64,000 nucleotides of DNA from Nitrospira sp. (lineage in GTDB: Bacteria; Nitrospirota; Nitrospiria; Nitrospirales; Nitrospiraceae), in contig JARFXQ010000001.1 of assembly GCA_029194725.1 (NCBI GenBank), positions 124,001 to 188,000 of the forward strand, given 5' to 3'. The notes under the pieces are model-generated. The model ran no database searches. It was given only the letters and a program-made list of their open reading frames with translations, and was not told the origin of the DNA. How positions within the stretch are numbered: the first letter of the stretch is position 1; the number at the start of each line of letters is the position of its first letter. Position numbers and translations under genes: made by a program. This document shows, one piece after another, positions 17,511-26,594 of this stretch.

Positions 17511-18956
17511 CTACTTACCGCCTGGAGCCGCCACCTTGGGAGCGAACATCTCAAACACACTTGGTGACCGTTCAATGTAATCCGGCGGGAAGAAGTTAAA
17601 GCGCCGCCACAGTTCATACCACAGAGGGACACGATTCATGACCACCCAGCCCAATACCTTTGTGCCCTGCCTCACCTGAGACTGATCAGGCCATGGTTGA
17701 GGATCATCAGGGTCAGGAACGACCCAGAACCGATAATTTCCTTTTCCATCGTCGATCTGGTCAACCACCTTGATGACCCCCCCACGAGTACCAGCCATCA
17801 ATGAAGGCCAGGCAGGCAATGGGATGGCCGGCACTCCAAAAAACAGGATTCGAACCTTCCGCCCAGGTTTCAAAAGTGGAGAATCCAACCCTTCGGCAGT
17901 CATTTCGATGGCTGGATCGGTGGCGAGAGGAGAAATCGTGACCAAATTATCTCCCTGCCTGACGGTCTCGTTGACACCGACCCTAGCCATTTTGACCACG
18001 GTGCCGTCCATAGGAGCGATGAGGCGGGCGGCCTCGATCCGTTGTTGGACCCCCTGTTGCCGGTACGAGATATCCGCCAAACTCTCCGTGGCCTTCGCGG
18101 CTTCAGCCACGGCATTATCTCGCATGGCTATTGCCTCCATGAGCCGTTGCTGCACATCCGCCGTGACTTGATCACGCCCGAAGCTTAACGAGGACCGAGC
18201 CTGCTCAGCCGCCAACAAAGCGGCCTGGGCTGCCTGCAAACCAGCTTTTGTGCTGATTTCCGTCTGAATCGTCAACTCAAGTTCTCGTTGTGAAACGAGC
18301 CCGTCCCTGACAAGTTGTCGATGGCGGTCGACATTGAGTTGCGCTGTGTGGACATCGATCTTATACTGTTCGACCTTCTGTTGCGCCTCTCGCACTTTGT
18401 TGTCTGCTTCCACCACTCTGGCCTCGGCCGCTGGCACGGCAGCCTGGACCAGTTTTTTCATCTCCCCGATCCTCTTATTGAGCTGATCCGCTCTTGAGAG
18501 TGCTGCCTGACGTGTTTGCTCTAGAGCTGCCCGACGTTGTTCGAAGAGAGGAATGATTTCCGGCGCCATAAAGGTCGGATCATAGTCTTCGAGTTCGCCG
18601 ATGAGCTCGCCTTTTTTAACCTTCACTCCTTCAAAAATATGCCAAGCCTTGACACGACCCGTGATCCGAGACTCGATCTTCTGCGGTCGGTCGTAGGGAG
18701 TATAAGCAGAAACTCTCCCATTCGCGGAGATCGTCTGTGTCCATGGGACGAACTCAAGAACGATCAGAAAAAGCAGGAGGGTCGTCAGTATCGCACGAGA
18801 TGCCGTGAACATTCCTCCTGGAATCTGTACCGCTTCCCAGCACGGCAACTTTGCCAATGTGGGTCCTTGTTCGATGGTGATCGCTGCCAAGCCTACCCCT
18901 CGCTTGGCCAACGCACGTTCTCCGCTGCCTTCGCCACCGTGACCTAGGCTAGCCAT
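17511..18956 (-). CDS. HlyD-family membrane fusion (adaptor) protein of the export operon
   Basis: 481 residues from ATG 18956, which follows GGAGG. One transmembrane segment (ILTTLLLFLIVLEFVPW, about residues 55-75) precedes a biotinyl-lipoyl-like half domain (GRVKAWHIFEGVKVKKGELI), a long coiled-coil hairpin (about residues 140-310, rich in Ala, Glu, Gln) and the second lipoyl half (APMDGTVVKMARVGVNETVR). Such proteins bridge an inner-membrane transporter to a TolC channel. It is the last gene of the operon, 47 bases after the ABC gene. The C-terminal region (WPDQSQVRQGTKVLGWVVMN) resembles type I secretion adaptors. Confidence 0.85.
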   Translation of the reverse strand: MASLGHGGEGSGERALAKRGVGLAAITIEQGPTLAKLPCWEAVQIPGGMFTASRAILTTLLLFLIVLEFVPWTQTISANGRVSAYTPYDRPQKIESRITGRVKAWHIFEGVKVKKGELIGELEDYDPTFMAPEIIPLFEQRRAALEQTRQAALSRADQLNKRIGEMKKLVQAAVPAAEARVVEADNKVREAQQKVEQYKIDVHTAQLNVDRHRQLVRDGLVSQRELELTIQTEISTKAGLQAAQAALLAAEQARSSLSFGRDQVTADVQQRLMEAIAMRDNAVAEAAKATESLADISYRQQGVQQRIEAARLIAPMDGTVVKMARVGVNETVRQGDNLVTISPLATDPAIEMTAEGLDSPLLKPGRKVRILFFGVPAIPLPAWPSLMAGTRGGVIKVVDQIDDGKGNYRFWVVPDPDDPQPWPDQSQVRQGTKVLGWVVMNRVPLWYELWRRFNFFPPDYIERSPSVFEMFAPKVAAPGGK

Positions 18957-19003
18957 GGAGCCTCCATTCATTTATCGGTGTTGATGTTACCCTTACAACC
19001 TGT

Positions 19004-20680
19004 TTACGCATGAGCATGGTGCAGCATAATACGACGATCGGCATGATCCGTAAGATTGGGATCCGTCGATACAAAGATCACGGACCATGCTTCATCTTTA
19101 GAGCACAGCCGACGCAGCACGCGCTCGCGCAGCGATGGCTCGAGCGAGTGAATCAAGCCGTCGAATATGAGAACTTGTGGACGCCCTAGAATAGCCCTGG
19201 CCAGAAGAATCTGCACAATGTGGGTCGGCGAGACGGACTCCCCCAACGAGGAGACCTCGGACTTCACGCCGTGTGACAATCCCTCGACATCTTCCTCAAG
19301 TTCGGTGAATCGGAGAGCCCAGTTGAGGTCGTCATAGGTGACATAGGATCGTCCCATGACGATATTTTCTTCGATCGTTCCCTTGAGCAACGACAACTGA
19401 GAGTCGATCATGACACTGCGGGTTTGGTTGATGGCATTAGGCTCGATATACCGAAGATCGACTCCATTGTACTGAACGACACCATTGGTCGGAGCTTCAA
19501 GGCCACCCAACACCCTGGCCAAAGCAGTCTTGGCTCCCGTAGTTCGGGCGTAGATACCGAGCTTCTCGCCTGGTGCTACTTCCAGGTTGAAGCCATCGAA
19601 GACGGACACTCCGCCGTGGATCAGACTCACGCTTTTGCAGGTGACGCGAACCCCTTGAGTCAAATGTTTGGGAAGCGCCACGACGGATTCGGGTACGACG
19701 TAATCTTGCTCTTGGCTAAAGACCACATCGAGGTGTTTCAGAGACGTGAAGAAATAGTACACATACCCCATGTTTTTGATCAGGGAATCGAAATTGAGGA
19801 TGAGTGCGCCGACGACCGCCTGAACAGCGACCAATTGCCCCAGAGTCATCTGCCCTGATGCCATGAGCCAGGCTGAGAGGGCGAGAGCTCCAGATTGTGC
19901 AACTGCTTGCCCCGTCACCGAACCAATGTATTGCCGCACAAGGACGACAAACCGGGCCTTCCGAGTTTCGACATACCGAGTGACAAGCTCATTCGTCTTC
20001 TGAAAAAGAAATGGGCGGCTGTCGGTGGCCTTCAACTGCAAGGCATTCTGCGAGATCTCCTGAATCCAATTGAAGACATCGTACTTCGCATGAGACATGG
20101 CGAGGGTCGTCTTCAGAGCACCACGGGAGAGCACGAAAAACGTGATCCCGAACCCTGCCATGAGCAGAAGGTTGTACACGAGAAAATAGGGATGGTAGAC
20201 GACCAGCACGACCATGCCGACCGAGCCACCCACCACGACGTTCATCAGGTCGATGAGCAGGGTGGACAAGGCCCGTTGCATAAAGACCGTCTCGATAAAG
20301 TAGTTCGAGAGCTCAACCCGCGCCCCTTTAAATCGATTCCGAGGAAGCTGCTCAACCATCGCGACTGCAACCCTTGCAAAGAGTCGGCGTTGCACGACAT
20401 CCACCGCGTAGAAATGGAAGGTCTTGAACAGGCCGACAAACAACAGCACTGCCAACATAATGCCGGTCAGAGTCCAAATCATGACCGGCTGCACCGCGTA
20501 GGAAAAGGTGCTGACCAACTCCTGCACGGTCAACGGGATGATGAGGGAAAAGAACCCAACGGCTAGGGCGTAAGAAAAAATCAGACTCATGATCTTTTTC
20601 TCAGCCTTCATAGCCACGGACAGCTGCTTCATCAGCGCTTCAAACAGGCCTTGATAACTTTCGCCCTGAGGTTCTTTCAT
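19004..20680 (-). CDS. ABC transporter (fused membrane and nucleotide-binding domains) with degenerate ATPase motifs
   Basis: 558 residues from ATG 20680. The N-terminal half is an exporter-type membrane domain (spans near SLIFSYALAVGFFSLIIPL, ALALSAWLMASGQMTLGQL and others) without a C39 peptidase. The C-terminal NBD retains the fold (PGEKLGIYA, GTIEENIVMGR, ILLARAILGRPQVLIFD), but the active-site motifs are altered: Walker A reads ARTTGAKT, the Q-loop Gln aligns with Ser (SQLSLLKGTI), LSGGQ reads VSPTH, the Glu after Walker B is Gly (IFDG), and the switch His is Thr. It sits between the TolC trio and a HlyD adaptor. It is probably an exporter component whose ATPase is weak or inactive. Confidence 0.85.
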   Translation of the reverse strand: MKEPQGESYQGLFEALMKQLSVAMKAEKKIMSLIFSYALAVGFFSLIIPLTVQELVSTFSYAVQPVMIWTLTGIMLAVLLFVGLFKTFHFYAVDVVQRRLFARVAVAMVEQLPRNRFKGARVELSNYFIETVFMQRALSTLLIDLMNVVVGGSVGMVVLVVYHPYFLVYNLLLMAGFGITFFVLSRGALKTTLAMSHAKYDVFNWIQEISQNALQLKATDSRPFLFQKTNELVTRYVETRKARFVVLVRQYIGSVTGQAVAQSGALALSAWLMASGQMTLGQLVAVQAVVGALILNFDSLIKNMGYVYYFFTSLKHLDVVFSQEQDYVVPESVVALPKHLTQGVRVTCKSVSLIHGGVSVFDGFNLEVAPGEKLGIYARTTGAKTALARVLGGLEAPTNGVVQYNGVDLRYIEPNAINQTRSVMIDSQLSLLKGTIEENIVMGRSYVTYDDLNWALRFTELEEDVEGLSHGVKSEVSSLGESVSPTHIVQILLARAILGRPQVLIFDGLIHSLEPSLRERVLRRLCSKDEAWSVIFVSTDPNLTDHADRRIMLHHAHA

Positions 20681-20805
20681 GAGCACCCCCAGTAATGATT
20701 TAAGTAAAAATGTGGATGATCCGCCTCTTGCCGAACTACACCACGTTCAAGAGCCCACTGCCAACCCACCGAATGAACTATCCCCTATTACCACCCTGCT
20801 TCTAC

Positions 20806-22404
20806 CTAATCACGTCCCGGCGGTTTGCGGCCAGCAGATCCGGCCGAAGCCAAGGGGTTGCCGTATTGGGCCAGCACGTCGTCGGCCAGTGGTTTTGACA
20901 GTGCCCCCCTGGCCCACAACATCCCTCCTCGGGCCACCGCATAGTCTGCCTGTGCGCGGTAGAGCTCATAGGCCGCTTGGACGACGGCGCGCTCGCGCAC
21001 GTTGACGAACAACACACTCGTCGCCCCCATATTAAACCTGGCTCGCTCCCCCTCTTCCAAGGTCTTGGCCAATCGGAGTGATTCGGTCGCGGCTCTCACC
21101 CGGTCTCGGGACCGCACAATCGCTGAAAGCCAGTTATCGACCTCGATCTGAACCTGTCGTTCCATGTAGGCTTGCTTATAGACCAATCGCTCCAGCTCGG
21201 CCTCCGCGTGAAGAACCTTCCCTCTGGCACCTCGATTGAACAACGGCATACTGAAGAACAGACCCACTTTGTAAGCGAACCCTCCGAAAACATAGATTGC
21301 GCCCGTTTGCGGCCCCCCCTCAATCGTTAGCTTTGGAAGGAGATTATTCTTCGCCAGTTTCAGTTCGACATTGTTCAATTTGACTTCAATGTAGAGATCG
21401 CGTACTTCCGGCCGATCCTCCCTCGCTTCCGCTTTGAAGGCCGCCACCTCCTCCTCGCTCGGCAACGACGTTTCACCCTGAAACTCCGGCGCCCATTCCG
21501 GGCGTGGGGTCACCGGTTCGTCGTTTTCCCAGAGAAAGAGCGCCAGCTTATATTGTTCATACTCCACCTTCCGTTGCGCGGCAATGGCAGCCTCCCGACG
21601 AGCCTGAACTTCTTCTCGGGCCTCGACCACGTCAATCGGAGCGACCGCGCCGGCTTTGGCTCTCCCCTCAACCATGCGATAGCGCTCCTCCGCGACGGCC
21701 AGCGCACGTTTCACCACATCGGCTTGTTTGACGGCGACCTGCCAATCCCAGTATTGAATGGCCCCGGCGAGATAGAGATCTTGCCGTTTCTGGGCCACCT
21801 TCACCTCGGCTTGCGGCCCAGCGATCTCCGCCTGTTGCAACACGGCATACTCTTCGTTGACCATGAATCCCCGTAGGAGATTAATCGCTCCGCCGACGAT
21901 ACCCGATTGTTGCGGATAGAACAGTTGGACGTCCTGAGGGATCGCCACCGCGGGACTCAGTGGAGTATGAGGTGGATTTAGGGTGTTGCCACTGCCAGTG
22001 ATAGTGGCTCTATCCCCAAAGCCGTTACGGATACCGCCGAAGATCTCCCACCCCCAGGGGTGTCCGACCTTGAGATAGGTATCGTTATAGCCAACGCTCA
22101 ATTTATTCGGCGCGCCTTGAACGTTCGTCAGATTATACGTTTCATACCGGTCGAACTCGAGCTCGTTCCGAAGTCTCGGCTCCCATGCACCCAACGCTTT
22201 CAGGATTTTCGCCCGAGCCTGCGCCCGCTCCAGTCCCATTGCCCGGAGCAGCGGATGGGTCAACTCAATCCTCGCGAACACCTCTACAATGGTCAGGGGA
22301 GCGGTGCGTGTCGATTGAGCCTGCACGGCACTCAAGTCGATCAGCGGTTCCGCCAATGCGGTCGCCGACACCATCATGAACGAGAACAGCAAGAGAAGGA
22401 TCAA
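20806..22404 (-). CDS. TolC-family outer membrane efflux protein (third of three tandem copies)
   Basis: 532 residues. The start is TTG 22404, with AAGGAG nine bases upstream, the same spacing as in both paralogues. A signal peptide (ILLLLFSFMMVSATALA) is followed by EPLIDLSAVQAQSTRTAPLT, nearly the same mature N-terminus as the other two. Two OEP repeats with long Ala/Glu/Arg-rich helices follow (QKRQDLYLAGAIQYWDWQVA; LRLAKTLEEGERARFNMGAT), as in TolC channels. It lies 25 bases after the second copy and 125 bases before the ABC gene. It carries unique segments (e.g. around IPQDVQLFYPQQSG), so the copies are not redundant in sequence. Confidence 0.9.
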   Translation of the reverse strand: MILLLLFSFMMVSATALAEPLIDLSAVQAQSTRTAPLTIVEVFARIELTHPLLRAMGLERAQARAKILKALGAWEPRLRNELEFDRYETYNLTNVQGAPNKLSVGYNDTYLKVGHPWGWEIFGGIRNGFGDRATITGSGNTLNPPHTPLSPAVAIPQDVQLFYPQQSGIVGGAINLLRGFMVNEEYAVLQQAEIAGPQAEVKVAQKRQDLYLAGAIQYWDWQVAVKQADVVKRALAVAEERYRMVEGRAKAGAVAPIDVVEAREEVQARREAAIAAQRKVEYEQYKLALFLWENDEPVTPRPEWAPEFQGETSLPSEEEVAAFKAEAREDRPEVRDLYIEVKLNNVELKLAKNNLLPKLTIEGGPQTGAIYVFGGFAYKVGLFFSMPLFNRGARGKVLHAEAELERLVYKQAYMERQVQIEVDNWLSAIVRSRDRVRAATESLRLAKTLEEGERARFNMGATSVLFVNVRERAVVQAAYELYRAQADYAVARGGMLWARGALSKPLADDVLAQYGNPLASAGSAGRKPPGRD

Positions 22405-22429
22405 GGCAGGATGCTCCTTTGTTGCCGAG

Positions 22430-23974
22430 TTAATCGCGTCCCTGTCGTTTGTAACCGTTCATGCCCGCCGCCGTCACCGGGTCCCCGTACTTGACCAACT
22501 CGCTTTGGGGCCACGGCTTCGACAATGTTCCCTTGGCCCACAACATGCCACCGCGCGCCACGGCGTAGTCGGCTTGCGCTCGATACAGTTGGTACGCTTG
22601 TGTCACCGCGTTGCGCTCACGGACGTTCACAAAGAGGACGGTGCTCGCGCCCATATTGAATCGGGTCCGCTCGCCCTCTTCCAGCGTCTTGGCCAACCGC
22701 AGGGCTTCCGTCGCAACCTTCACCCGATCACGAGCCCTCACAATGGCTGAGAGCCAGTTGTCCACGTCGATGCTGACTTGTTGCTCGGTGTACAGCTGTT
22801 TCATGACCAATTGTTGCTGGTCCGCTTCCGCGTACATGACCTCCCCACGCCCTTTCCGCTGGAACAGCGGCATCTCAAAGTTCGCTTCGAACCGATACCC
22901 GATTCCCACAACCCAGTCCAAGGCGAACGGCATTTGTCCCCCCTTAAAATCCATCTTCGGGAGCAGGTGGTTCTTGGCGAGTTTGATGTCGATATTGTTC
23001 ATCTTGGCTTCGATGTAGATCTCCCGCACTTCCGGCCGATCTTCTTTCGCCTCCACTTTATAGGCCGCAACCTCGTCCTTGGTCGGGAGCGGCGTTTCAC
23101 CCTGGAACTCCGGCGCCCATTCCGGGCGTGGCGTCACCGGCTCGCCCTTCTCCCAGAGAAAGAGTGACAGTTGGTACTGCTCATACTCGACCTTCCGCTG
23201 GGCGGCAATCGCTGCCTCCCGGCGTCGCTGCACTTCCTGCCTGGCCTCAATGACGTCGAGCGGCGAGGCCAGGCCACTCTTGGCCTGCCCTTCAATCTGC
23301 GTGAACCGTTCTTCGGCCACGCCCAGGGCCCGCTGCTGCACCTCGTTCTGTTTGACCGCGACCTGCCAATCCCAGTACTGCACGGCACCGGCGAGATACA
23401 GGTCCTGCCGTTTCTGCGCCACCTTGATCTCCGCCTGTGGCCCCGCGAGTTCGGCCTTTTGAAGCTCCGCGTACTCCTCGTTGATCATGAAGCCGCGCAG
23501 GAGGTGAGCCTCACCCCTGAAGAGCGCTTGTTGCGTAGGGTAGAAAAGTTGCACATCCGCGATATACATCGTGGCGTCTCGTGTGAAGACATCCCCAAAA
23601 CCGTTGCGGATCCCGCCTTCAATCCGGAAGCCCCAGGGATGCCCGATCCCAAGGGTGGTGTCGTTAAATCCCCCCCATTGCTCCTGCCTGAGGGCCAAGA
23701 AATTCCAAACCTGATACCGACCAGCCTCTGTCTCATTCTTGAACTTCGGTTCCCAGGCCCCAAGCGCTTTCAGGATCTTTGCCCGGGCCTCCATCCGTTC
23801 CACCCCGGTCGCTCGAAGTAGCGGATGCGCCAACTCAATACGGGCGAGCACTTCGCTGATGGTCAGGGGCTCGGTGCGGACAGATTGGGCCTTCACCGCG
23901 CTTGAATCGTGCACCGGTTCCGCCAGTGTCGTCACGGGAAGCAAGATCAGAATCAGGAGTAATAAAGCGGCCAT
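22430..23974 (-). CDS. TolC-family outer membrane efflux protein (second of three tandem copies)
   Basis: 514 residues from ATG 23974, nine bases after AAGGAG; a longer frame to 24109 would overlap the upstream paralogue and lacks a signal peptide. The signal peptide AALLLLILILLPVTTLA is followed by the OEP domain with the shared blocks LRATGVERMEARAKILKALG and NNIDIKLAKNHLLPKMDFKG. Like its neighbours it should form a trimeric outer-membrane channel with a periplasmic coiled-coil barrel. The region 23284-23460 is almost identical at the DNA level to 24854-25024 of the first copy, while the extracellular-loop region differs. Confidence 0.9.
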   Translation of the reverse strand: MAALLLLILILLPVTTLAEPVHDSSAVKAQSVRTEPLTISEVLARIELAHPLLRATGVERMEARAKILKALGAWEPKFKNETEAGRYQVWNFLALRQEQWGGFNDTTLGIGHPWGFRIEGGIRNGFGDVFTRDATMYIADVQLFYPTQQALFRGEAHLLRGFMINEEYAELQKAELAGPQAEIKVAQKRQDLYLAGAVQYWDWQVAVKQNEVQQRALGVAEERFTQIEGQAKSGLASPLDVIEARQEVQRRREAAIAAQRKVEYEQYQLSLFLWEKGEPVTPRPEWAPEFQGETPLPTKDEVAAYKVEAKEDRPEVREIYIEAKMNNIDIKLAKNHLLPKMDFKGGQMPFALDWVVGIGYRFEANFEMPLFQRKGRGEVMYAEADQQQLVMKQLYTEQQVSIDVDNWLSAIVRARDRVKVATEALRLAKTLEEGERTRFNMGASTVLFVNVRERNAVTQAYQLYRAQADYAVARGGMLWAKGTLSKPWPQSELVKYGDPVTAAGMNGYKRQGRD

Positions 23975-23997
23975 CGACGGATGCTCCTTGTGTCGGA

Positions 23998-25551
23998 TTA
24001 ATCGCGCCCCGGTTGTTTGTAACCGTTCATGCCCGCCGCCGTCAGCGGATTTCCATACTTCGCCAAGGACTCCGTCGGCCAAGGCTTCGACAATAGTCCT
24101 CTCGCCCACAGCATTCCTCCCTTGGACACCGTATAGTCTGCCTGGGCCCGATACAGCTGGTAGGCCAATTGCACCACGTTGCGCTCACGGAGGTTTACAA
24201 AGAGGACAGTGCTCGAACCCATATTGAATCGGGTCCGTTCGCCCTCCTCCAGCGTCTTGGCCAACCGCAGGGCTTCCGTCGCCGCTGCCACTCGATCTCT
24301 GGACCGCACTTGGGCCGAGAGCCAGTTATCCACGTCGAAGGTGACTTGTTGCTCGGTATAGCGCTGCTTCAACGCCCATTGCTGCTGGCTCACTTCCGCG
24401 GCCATGACCTTCCCACGCGCTTCCCGCTGAAACAGGGGTATCTCAAAGTGCATGCCCATCCGATACTGGTATCCCACCATCCAGTCCGCATAGTTAGGTT
24501 GCGGCCCCCCTTCAAGATCCAACTTTGGGAGCAGGTGGTTCTTGGCGAGTTTGATGTCGATATTGTTCATCTTGGCTTCGATGTAGAGGTCCCGCACTTC
24601 CGGCCGACCTTCTTTCGCCTCCACTTTATAAGCCGCGACCTCGTCGCTGGTCGGGAGCGGCGTTTCACCCTGAAACTCCGGCGCCCATTCCGGGCGTGGG
24701 GTCACCGGCTCGCCGTTTTCCCAGAGGAAGAGGGACAGCTTGTACTGTTCATACTCGACCTTCCGCTGGGCGGCGATCGCTGCCTCTTGGCGTCGCTGCA
24801 CTTCCTGCCTGGCCTCAATGACGTCGAGCGGCGAGACCAGGCCACGCTTGGTCTGCCCTTCAATCTGCGTGAACCGTTCTTCGGCCACGGCCAGGGCCCG
24901 CTGCTGCACCTCGTTCTGTTTGACCGCGACCTGCCAATCCCAGTACTGCACGGCACCGGCGAGATACAGGTCCTGCCGTTTCTGCGCCACCTTGATCTCC
25001 GCTTGTGGCCCCGCGAGCTCGGCCTGTTGAAACTGGGCGTTCTCCTCGTTGACCATGAGGCCTCGCAGCAGGTGGAACGACCCGCCGTAGTAGAAATGCT
25101 GCGTGTGATAAGTGGCCAGGACCTCAGAGGGAAAAGCAATGCGGTTGCTTGTCCCGCCATCCCCGAAGCCGCTACGGAGCCCGCTTTCGACCCGGAACCC
25201 CCAGGGATGCCCGACCTGGACTGTGGTGTCGTTATATCCTCCCGTATGTTGACTCGGAATGTCGAACGCTGTCGTGAGATTCCACGTAGTAAAACGTTCA
25301 ACCTGTGTATAGCTCTTGAACGTGGGTTCCCAAGCCCCGAGCGCCTTCAGGATCTTCGCCCGGGCCTTCGTTCGCTCGGCTCCCATCCCCCGCAGCAGCG
25401 GATGCGTCAACTCGATGCGAGCCAACACTTCATCGATGGTCAGTGGAGTAGTGCGCGTCGACTGAGCCTGCACCGCGCGAGAGTCGATCACCGGTTCCGC
25501 CAGTGCGGTCATTGGCAGGAGGGTCACAATGGCCAATACCAGAGCGATCAT
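23998..25551 (-). CDS. TolC-family outer membrane efflux protein (first of three tandem copies)
   Basis: 517 residues from ATG 25551, nine bases after AAGGAG; an in-frame GTG at 25569 overlaps that ribosome site and is rejected. Signal peptide IALVLAIVTLLPMTALA, then the OEP domain (VDNWLSAQVRSRDRVAAATE; LEEGERTRFNMGSSTVLFVN). It is first in a leftward operon of three TolC-like genes, an ABC transporter and an adaptor. A candidate promoter at 25591-25619 lies just upstream and a divergent LysR-type gene starts 144 bases away, so expression is probably under that regulator. Confidence 0.9.
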   Translation of the reverse strand: MIALVLAIVTLLPMTALAEPVIDSRAVQAQSTRTTPLTIDEVLARIELTHPLLRGMGAERTKARAKILKALGAWEPTFKSYTQVERFTTWNLTTAFDIPSQHTGGYNDTTVQVGHPWGFRVESGLRSGFGDGGTSNRIAFPSEVLATYHTQHFYYGGSFHLLRGLMVNEENAQFQQAELAGPQAEIKVAQKRQDLYLAGAVQYWDWQVAVKQNEVQQRALAVAEERFTQIEGQTKRGLVSPLDVIEARQEVQRRQEAAIAAQRKVEYEQYKLSLFLWENGEPVTPRPEWAPEFQGETPLPTSDEVAAYKVEAKEGRPEVRDLYIEAKMNNIDIKLAKNHLLPKLDLEGGPQPNYADWMVGYQYRMGMHFEIPLFQREARGKVMAAEVSQQQWALKQRYTEQQVTFDVDNWLSAQVRSRDRVAAATEALRLAKTLEEGERTRFNMGSSTVLFVNLRERNVVQLAYQLYRAQADYTVSKGGMLWARGLLSKPWPTESLAKYGNPLTAAGMNGYKQPGRD

Positions 25552-25590
25552 GAGGGACGCTCCTTTCACGTTGGGTGGCGGACGGCGCCC

Positions 25591-25694: not shown

Positions 25695-26594
25695 ATGGAT
25701 TGGTTGAACTATCACCACCTGCTGTACTTCTGGTCCGTCGCCAAGCACGGGACCGTCACGAAAGCCTGCGAAGAACTCCGTCTGGCCCAACCCACGATCA
25801 GCGGACAGATCCACCTCTTGGAATGTACGTTGGGAGAAAAGCTCTTCATCCGAACGGGGCGCCGCCTGGCGCTGACGGAGATGGGCCGGCTCGTGTTCAG
25901 GTACGCAGAGGACATCTTCTCGACCGGGCAAGAGCTGATGAACTCGGTCAAGGGGCAGACGAACGGACATCCTGCCAGGCTGGTCGTCGGCATCGCGGAC
26001 GCAGTCCCAAAACCGCTGGCGACCCGACTGCTCAGGTCAGCGCTGAAACTGTCCCGTCCGACTCGCTTGATCTGTCAGGAAGACAAACTTCCCCAACTCT
26101 TGACCGATCTGACGGCCCATCGATTGGATCTGGTGATCGCCGACACACCGGCCCCATCGAACATCAAGGAACTCACCTACAGCCATCCCCTGGGTGAATC
26201 GGGAGTGATGCTGTTTGCGACGGCCAAGTTGACGGCACAATATCGTCGGGGGTTTCCGCAGTCGTTAAGCGGCGCACCTCTCCTCCTCCCGACATCCAAT
26301 GCCGTGCTTCGACGACTGCTCGATCAATGGCTGGTCAACCAGAGGCTACATCCGGACATAGTCGGGGAGTTCGACGACAGCGCGACCTTAAAGGCATTCG
26401 GCCAGGACGGATATGGGATCTTCCCCGGCGGGTCGGTCATCGAGAAGGAGATCTGCCGCCAATATCGGGTGCAGGTGGTCGGAGAGCTAGATGCTATCAA
26501 ACAGCATTTCTACGCGATCACCGTGGAGCGAAGGCTTAAGCACCCTGCCGTCCTTGCCCTCGTCCGGACTGCCCGGGAAGAGCTGCTGGCCTGA
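25695..26594 (+). CDS. LysR-family transcriptional regulator, NhaR-like
   Basis: 299 residues. The N-terminal winged helix begins MDWLNYHHLLYFWSVAKHGT and continues CEELRLAQPTISGQIHLLE, the form seen in NhaR-type regulators. The C-terminal two-lobed sensor domain follows (VVGIADAVPKPLATRLLRSA; LVIADTPAPSNIKELTYSHP). It is divergent from the TolC-ABC-HlyD operon and a T-N11-A operator lies between the two, which makes control of that operon likely. NhaR proteins respond to sodium or other ionic stress in enterobacteria; whether this one senses the same signal is unknown. Confidence 0.88.
   Translation: MDWLNYHHLLYFWSVAKHGTVTKACEELRLAQPTISGQIHLLECTLGEKLFIRTGRRLALTEMGRLVFRYAEDIFSTGQELMNSVKGQTNGHPARLVVGIADAVPKPLATRLLRSALKLSRPTRLICQEDKLPQLLTDLTAHRLDLVIADTPAPSNIKELTYSHPLGESGVMLFATAKLTAQYRRGFPQSLSGAPLLLPTSNAVLRRLLDQWLVNQRLHPDIVGEFDDSATLKAFGQDGYGIFPGGSVIEKEICRQYRVQVVGELDAIKQHFYAITVERRLKHPAVLALVRTAREELLA

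Follow-up and report, generated by a model that had tools for sequence, protein, structure and literature searches.

What an ABC exporter subunit can do once the residues that hydrolyse ATP have been replaced is the question raised by one gene in a 64,000-nucleotide stretch of Nitrospira DNA, called the window here. The gene encodes a half-transporter of 558 amino acids, referred to below as the pseudo-ABC, that was recognized by open reading frame, Pfam and NCBIfam profiles and predicted structure. It stands in an operon with genes for a periplasmic adaptor and outer-membrane channels.

The pseudo-ABC and its degenerate motifs

The pseudo-ABC gene lies on the minus strand at 19004..20680, with an ATG start at 20680, a stop codon ending at 19004 and 558 codons; a GTG at 20686 is a possible alternative start. 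A membrane domain (residues about 1-335, 19676..20680, minus strand), supported by hallmark residues and a dN/dS of 0.04-0.12, precedes a degenerate nucleotide-binding domain (NBD; residues about 336-558, 19007..19675, minus strand) for which an ABC fold is predicted. Five motifs of the NBD, all located on the minus strand by alignment, are altered. (i) The Walker A position reads ARTTGAKT (A378-T385, 19526..19549), with Ala for the last Gly of the P-loop. (ii) The Q-loop position, D426-S427-Q428 (19397..19405), is longer by one inserted residue than in canonical exporters. (iii) The signature position is VSPTH (483-487, 19220..19234). (iv) The Walker B segment (19148..19162) keeps Asp507, as part of FDG, with Gly508 in place of the catalytic Glu and His511 downstream. 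(v) The H-loop position reads S538-T539-D540-P541 (19058..19069), and Thr replaces the switch His. The first-pass annotation had reported all five changes within the correct coordinates, and the alignment bears them out; it had noted neither the strand nor the wider family, the four-helix sensor partner and the orphan copies beside a two-component system or an antiporter that are described below. Its description of every ATPase signature as changed goes too far, since Asp507 of Walker B and Lys384/Thr385 of the P-loop are kept. It had also paired the Q-loop Gln with Ser: the Gln is indeed displaced and follows at 428, and the residue aligned with the canonical Gln is Asp426 or Ser427 according to where the gap is placed. 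Of the features of a functional ABC ATPase, the Walker A consensus GxxGxGK[ST], LSGGQ, the catalytic Glu and the switch His are absent and the Walker B Asp is present. Judged by its motifs, the pseudo-ABC is unfit for catalysis.

The Pfam ABC_tran profile matches residues 362-507 with 35.4 bits. The nearest NCBIfam families are bacteriocin and type I secretion exporters, and the scores are far under every cut-off (TIGR03796, 118 versus 853 bits; TIGR03375, 103 versus 693; TIGR01846, 77 versus 726). In the AlphaFold2 monomer the NBD is modelled with confidence (block-mean pLDDT 74-91 over residues 341-550 and 79-91 over 341-540), and the membrane domain is low-confidence. The best Foldseek match of the model is HlyB of the HlyB/D complex, and PCAT1, TAP and IrtAB are matched as well; the modelled NBD superimposes on that of TAP1 with Z 24.6 and 2.2 A over 223 residues. 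The prediction thus has the type I ABC exporter fold, a six-helix membrane domain joined to an ABC NBD. The type I secretion ABCs (HlyB, LssB/TIGR03375, PCAT1/ComA and NHLM_micro_ABC1) share with the pseudo-ABC this fold, a gene unit with HlyD and TolC and the best family scores. Unlike them, it lacks the ATPase motifs except for the Walker B Asp and the P-loop Lys/Thr, and it has no peptidase-like N-terminal domain.

Conservation, selection and distribution

Family matches in 59 related genomes range from 96% down to 38% identity and are mostly full length. Motif counts were taken over 146 distinct family members from Nitrospirales, 143-145 of which could be scored at each position. The catalytic Glu position holds Gly in 145/145. 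The switch His occurs in 0/143, its place being taken by N (87), T (52), S (2) or I (2). Within the P-loop, the first Gly is found in 0/145, the last in 22/145 and the Lys in 120/145. The Walker B position is D in 126, E in 10 and N in 8 of about 145; genomes of the N. defluvii type have Glu there, and Asn in their tandem copy. LSGGQ is found in no member; at its third position Gly has given way to P, S, T, R, L, K, A or V. Several replacements are themselves nearly fixed: DS at the Q-loop (139/145), DGxxH at Walker B (His in 144/145) and [NT]DP at the H-loop (140). Since these replacements are shared by 139-145 of the roughly 145 homologues, and a T1SS ABC transporter of the same Nitrospira genome, included as a control, has intact motifs, chance is excluded as their source. 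Loss of the P-loop is graded. Early-branching Nitrospirales copies read ...STGKTTLA, and later ones lack the Gly and then the Lys or Thr; the remaining motifs are lost even in the early-branching copies with a GKTT P-loop.

Selection was measured with Nei-Gojobori dN/dS, given as medians over seven Nitrospira orthologues, some pairs of which have dS > 1. The pseudo-ABC scores 0.086 overall, with 0.114 for the membrane domain and 0.049 for the NBD. A canonical peptidase-type ABC from these genomes scores 0.087 overall, with 0.061 for its membrane domain and 0.102 for its NBD; HlyD stands at 0.054 and TolC3 at 0.225. The dead NBD is therefore under tighter constraint than its own membrane domain (0.049 versus 0.114) and no less constrained than a working NBD (0.102). 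On these rates and replacements, catalysis was lost long ago and the dead NBD performs some function. The first-pass annotation had asked whether homologues in related genomes share the changes and had called for dN/dS. The answers (Gly in 145/145, His in 0/143; 0.086, purifying), together with the conserved operon, uphold its view of an intact, maintained gene whose product would be unable to hydrolyse ATP normally; close homologues with normal motifs, which it had named as evidence of decay, are absent among those found.

The phylum sample comprised 295 genomes, of which 77 have a family member at E<=1e-60; these 77 belong to a single order and to two taxonomic families within it. The named loci belong to Nitrospira and related metagenome-assembled genomes (MAGs), apart from two with other labels. 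These two, labelled Acidimicrobiia (L145) and a Nitrosospira bin (L136), carry Nitrospirales-type copies and are probably misbinned or mislabelled MAG contigs. Beyond the phylum, a plasmid collection yielded copies, all of them plasmid-borne, from Bacteroidota and Sphingomonadales, the best full-length matches being from Persicobacter, Aureibacter and Riemerella and from Novosphingobium, Sphingobium and Croceicoccus, respectively. Each such gene is accompanied by HlyD, and TolC is adjacent where annotated or detected. Every plasmid copy examined has a degenerate NBD with substitutions of its own. The Sphingomonadales proteins have a P-loop deletion without Lys/Thr and a replaced Walker B Asp; the Persicobacter protein has Asn-Asp at Walker B. 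The Riemerella protein keeps a near-complete P-loop and the Glu, and has Lys at Walker B; it lacks both LSGGQ and the switch His. A DUF2309 gene precedes the triad in Sphingobium sp. KCTC 72723 (L203:1362-5664). Queried with the HlyD of the window, the same collection returned only 20 plasmid records, and in each of them a dead ABC gene, or one closely related to it, is present as well.

In a whole-protein tree, a branch with 100% SH-aLRT support separates all 49 dead ABCs from 13 canonical exporters; a tree of the membrane domain only, with 12 canonical rows, gives the same split at 100% SH-aLRT. The canonical rows come from Nitrospirota and plasmids, and both trees were built by a quick method, with long branches and limited canonical sampling. 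Read most simply, a dead or dying ABC originated once, with lineage-specific erosion afterwards; the differing substitutions would also allow repeated losses within one clade. Membrane-domain residues common to the three phyla are Tyr37, Arg/Lys136, His163, Ser196, Tyr/His200 and Gln250, of which H163, Q250, S196 and Y37 are rare or absent in canonical exporters. In our reading of the alignment, H163 corresponds to the TM3-TM4 turn on the periplasmic face of canonical exporters, and it may contact the adaptor instead of carrying protons. E287 in the last helix was considered as a universal proton site and rejected, the window protein having Gln there. Taken together, the comparisons establish a natural family of ABC exporter subunits, catalytically dead by sequence, encoded as a gene unit with an HlyD-type adaptor and TolC.

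The family appears to have passed without recognition so far. Degenerate sites as such are well known in asymmetric pairs (PMC7756269). A literature search on dead ABC exporters with HlyD returned no paper on the family among open-access papers. A probable member is the 'HlyBD2-OMP2' system of Blastomonas fulva, whose ABC component is reported to be 51.8% similar to a toxin-secretion ABC of Novosphingobium aromaticivorans (PMC9505733). Plasmid pNL2 of N. aromaticivorans carries one dead triad; the homologue in strain DSM 12444 is SARO_RS19820. The two systems, compared by description, share a three-gene ABC-HlyD-OMP unit, whereas HlyBD2-OMP2 is presented as an ATP-driven efflux pump and the excerpt makes no mention of NBD degeneracy (PMC9505733). 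Secondary-SecA/HlyD loci were set aside as a parallel, those loci being without an ABC transporter homologue in the excerpt available (PMC4452313).

Gene neighbourhoods

On the minus strand of the window the order is tolC1-tolC2-tolC3-pseudo-ABC-hlyD, followed by purE and purK; the first-pass annotation had placed the gene in an operon with three TolC-like proteins and an adaptor. The gene tolC1 (23998..25569) is followed by tolC2 (22430..23974) and tolC3 (20806..22404), all three on the minus strand and assigned as TolC-like by profile match, tolC3 as an outer-membrane factor. The mechanical tolC2 frame extends to 24109 and overlaps tolC1; 23974 is its likely start. These three tandem paralogues, spanning 20806-25569, are 63-74% identical to one another, and relatives have a single copy; TolC3 evolves faster (dN/dS about 0.23) than the pseudo-ABC and HlyD of its operon. 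TolC-docking motifs of adaptors have the residue spacing RxxxLxxxxxxS. The periplasmic adaptor gene hlyD (17511..18971, minus strand; profile match and motif scan) encodes this motif RHRQLVRDGLVS, which is present in 89 of 95 adaptors and absent from several of those in Sphingomonadales and from that of Riemerella. It is the RLS-type motif described in PMC3391258. Like the pseudo-ABC, HlyD and TolC score below curated cut-offs (TIGR01843, 60 versus 209 bits; TIGR01844, 64 versus 225). Adjoining HlyD and TolC genes, as in a tripartite type I secretion system, are thus present, and the cut-offs for T1SS and bacteriocin exporters are missed. Upstream, the divergent nhaR (25695..26594, plus strand) encodes a LysR-type regulator that exceeds the NCBIfam cut-off for NhaR, a Na+/H+ stress regulator (240.5 versus 219 bits). 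A promoter and terminator scan performed no better than on shuffled sequences.

This layout is syntenic across the clade of the window. Most other Nitrospiraceae have the arrangement purE<-|hlyD-tolC-pseudo-ABC(-pseudo-ABC)-4HB. Outside the window's clade the locus often ends with this 4HB gene, which encodes a stand-alone membrane protein with a 4HB_MCP_1/TarH sensor domain; Pfam gave no match to an output domain in it. The 4HB proteins are 57-77% identical to the first sequence of their alignment. Examples include L036:6659-7447, L112:13616-14272 and L137:8224-8868, and a periplasmic stretch, LRVSRSGRSE, is invariant. A search of the genome that the window comes from, which is 78% complete, did not find the gene. 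Published gene lists give NhaR for comammox Nitrospira and N. moscoviensis and not for N. defluvii (PMC5596200), a distribution that agrees with the operon types seen here. In twelve loci, L112 and L137 among them, two ancient dead ABC paralogues stand in tandem between the TolC and sensor genes; such a pair is likely to be a heterodimer without a working ATPase site.

Main-type loci have HlyD and TolC neighbours, and orphan paralogues occur without HlyD or TolC nearby. Some orphans (L043:279-4814, L041:4956-9498 and L166-L168) lie immediately upstream of genes for a histidine kinase with a PAS domain and a response regulator of NtrC-like type, an association that suggests a signalling complex. 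Four others (L047:3763-6674, L160, L170 and L174) stand next to a CPA2-type cation:proton (Na/H) antiporter. A cation or proton theme thus recurs, with NhaR beside the window operon and CPA2 beside orphan copies, and is suggestive only.

Possible modes of action

The favoured reading, to which a probability of a little under one half is given, is that conserved dead ABC subunits form the inner gate, or translocator, of an HlyD-TolC conduit, opened otherwise than by ATP hydrolysis. Two chains, or in sister genera the two dead paralogues encoded in tandem, would dimerize in the inner membrane as in HlyB/HlyD, the dimer closing the trans-envelope conduit from within. The NBDs would keep their fold without hydrolysing ATP, most members probably without normal ATP binding, and would act as a constrained dimerization, gating or docking module. 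Opening could be triggered by an H+/Na+ or substrate gradient acting on the membrane domain, by a partner signal such as that of the four-helix sensor, or by both; sensor, kinase or ionic state may supply the gating input. In the window's clade, expression is probably cation- or pH-responsive through NhaR. The inner-gate reading draws on the conserved loss under purifying selection, the retained NBD fold, the HlyD-TolC operon in three phyla, the docking motif kept by the adaptor, the grouping of the dead ABCs in the trees and the membrane-domain hallmarks common to the three phyla. A gating or signal input is proposed because the partners are the 4HB_MCP sensor, the PAS kinase with its NtrC-like regulator, the CPA2 antiporter and NhaR. 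Ion-coupled drive is proposed because of a precedent: ATP-independent, proton-coupled transport has been reported for the NBD-less proteins LmrA-MD (PMC2704374) and MsbA-MD (PMC4979069). These share with the pseudo-ABC an exporter membrane domain without an ATPase. They differ in being laboratory truncations with reported transport, whereas the pseudo-ABC is natural and keeps its NBD fold. Several observations weigh against the inner gate: some members, with GKTT in early-branching Nitrospirales and the near-complete P-loop of Riemerella, may still bind nucleotide; E287 fails as a universal proton site and H163 may serve adaptor contact, as described above; and the orphan copies, by their gene neighbourhoods, show that the subunit can function outside a conduit.

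The rival that survives best, itself rather unlikely, takes the pseudo-ABC for a scaffold or sensor that transports nothing, its role being to anchor and regulate HlyD-TolC, or else a histidine kinase or an antiporter. The orphans beside kinase and regulator or antiporter genes fit this, as do the sensor protein without an output domain at the end of many main loci and the tighter constraint on the dead NBD than on the membrane domain; set against them are the conduit genes adjacent in all three phyla, which suggest export, and the adaptor's retained docking motif. It is improbable that ATP or another nucleotide is bound without being hydrolysed, as a regulatory ligand or dimer glue. The P-loop Lys (120/145), the Walker B Asp (126/145) and the near-complete P-loops of early-branching members and Riemerella would suit such a role, but the first P-loop Gly is lost in all and the last in 123/145, the window protein has Ala at the latter position, and the Sphingomonadales members combine a P-loop deletion with loss of Lys/Thr and of the Walker B Asp.

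The first-pass annotation had also offered pairing with a second NBD. The pseudo-ABC would then be the degenerate half of a heterodimer whose active half-transporter is encoded elsewhere, as in TmrAB and TM287/288. In such heterodimers the degenerate half normally keeps LSGGQ, its contribution to the one active site; no member of the pseudo-ABC family retains LSGGQ, so that neither composite site would be canonical. Composite ATP sites of heterodimeric exporters have been described, and one degenerate site per heterodimer is common (PMC7756269). TmrAB, TM287/288, TAP, BmrCD and CFTR/ABCC resemble the pseudo-ABC in having lost the catalytic Glu and switch His from a folded NBD, but TmrAB-type heterodimers keep one canonical site that powers them (PMC7756269). 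Canonical ABC genes are present elsewhere in the genomes; none was found in any locus examined, and an active tandem partner is ruled out, the tandem copies being equally dead. Pairing is accordingly disfavoured, and a partner in trans has only a slender chance of being correct. A decaying copy is rejected, its likelihood practically nil: a few draft-genome copies are broken into frames (G002:C25, G192:C4, G015:C100) and two same-genus genomes lack a family match (G021, G159), but the substitutions are identical in all homologues, omega is about 0.09, the frame is intact in nearly all genomes, synteny is maintained and no close homologue has intact motifs.

The inner-gate reading can be carried further, more tentatively, to multi-phylum tripartite export or signalling machines in which the ABC component works without ATP, as an ion- or gradient-driven, sensor-gated translocator whose NBD would be a regulatory dimerization module. 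Hydrolysis of ATP is what defines an ABC exporter, and a degenerate site is ordinarily known as half of an asymmetric pair (PMC7756269). If the proposal is true, an all-dead family found in three phyla and equipped with its own adaptor and channel would offer a natural way of testing whether the ABC membrane domain can run on another energy source, a question so far approached mainly through LmrA and MsbA engineered to lack the NBD. A record annotated 'ABC transporter ATP-binding protein' is not necessarily an ATP pump when its neighbours are HlyD and TolC.
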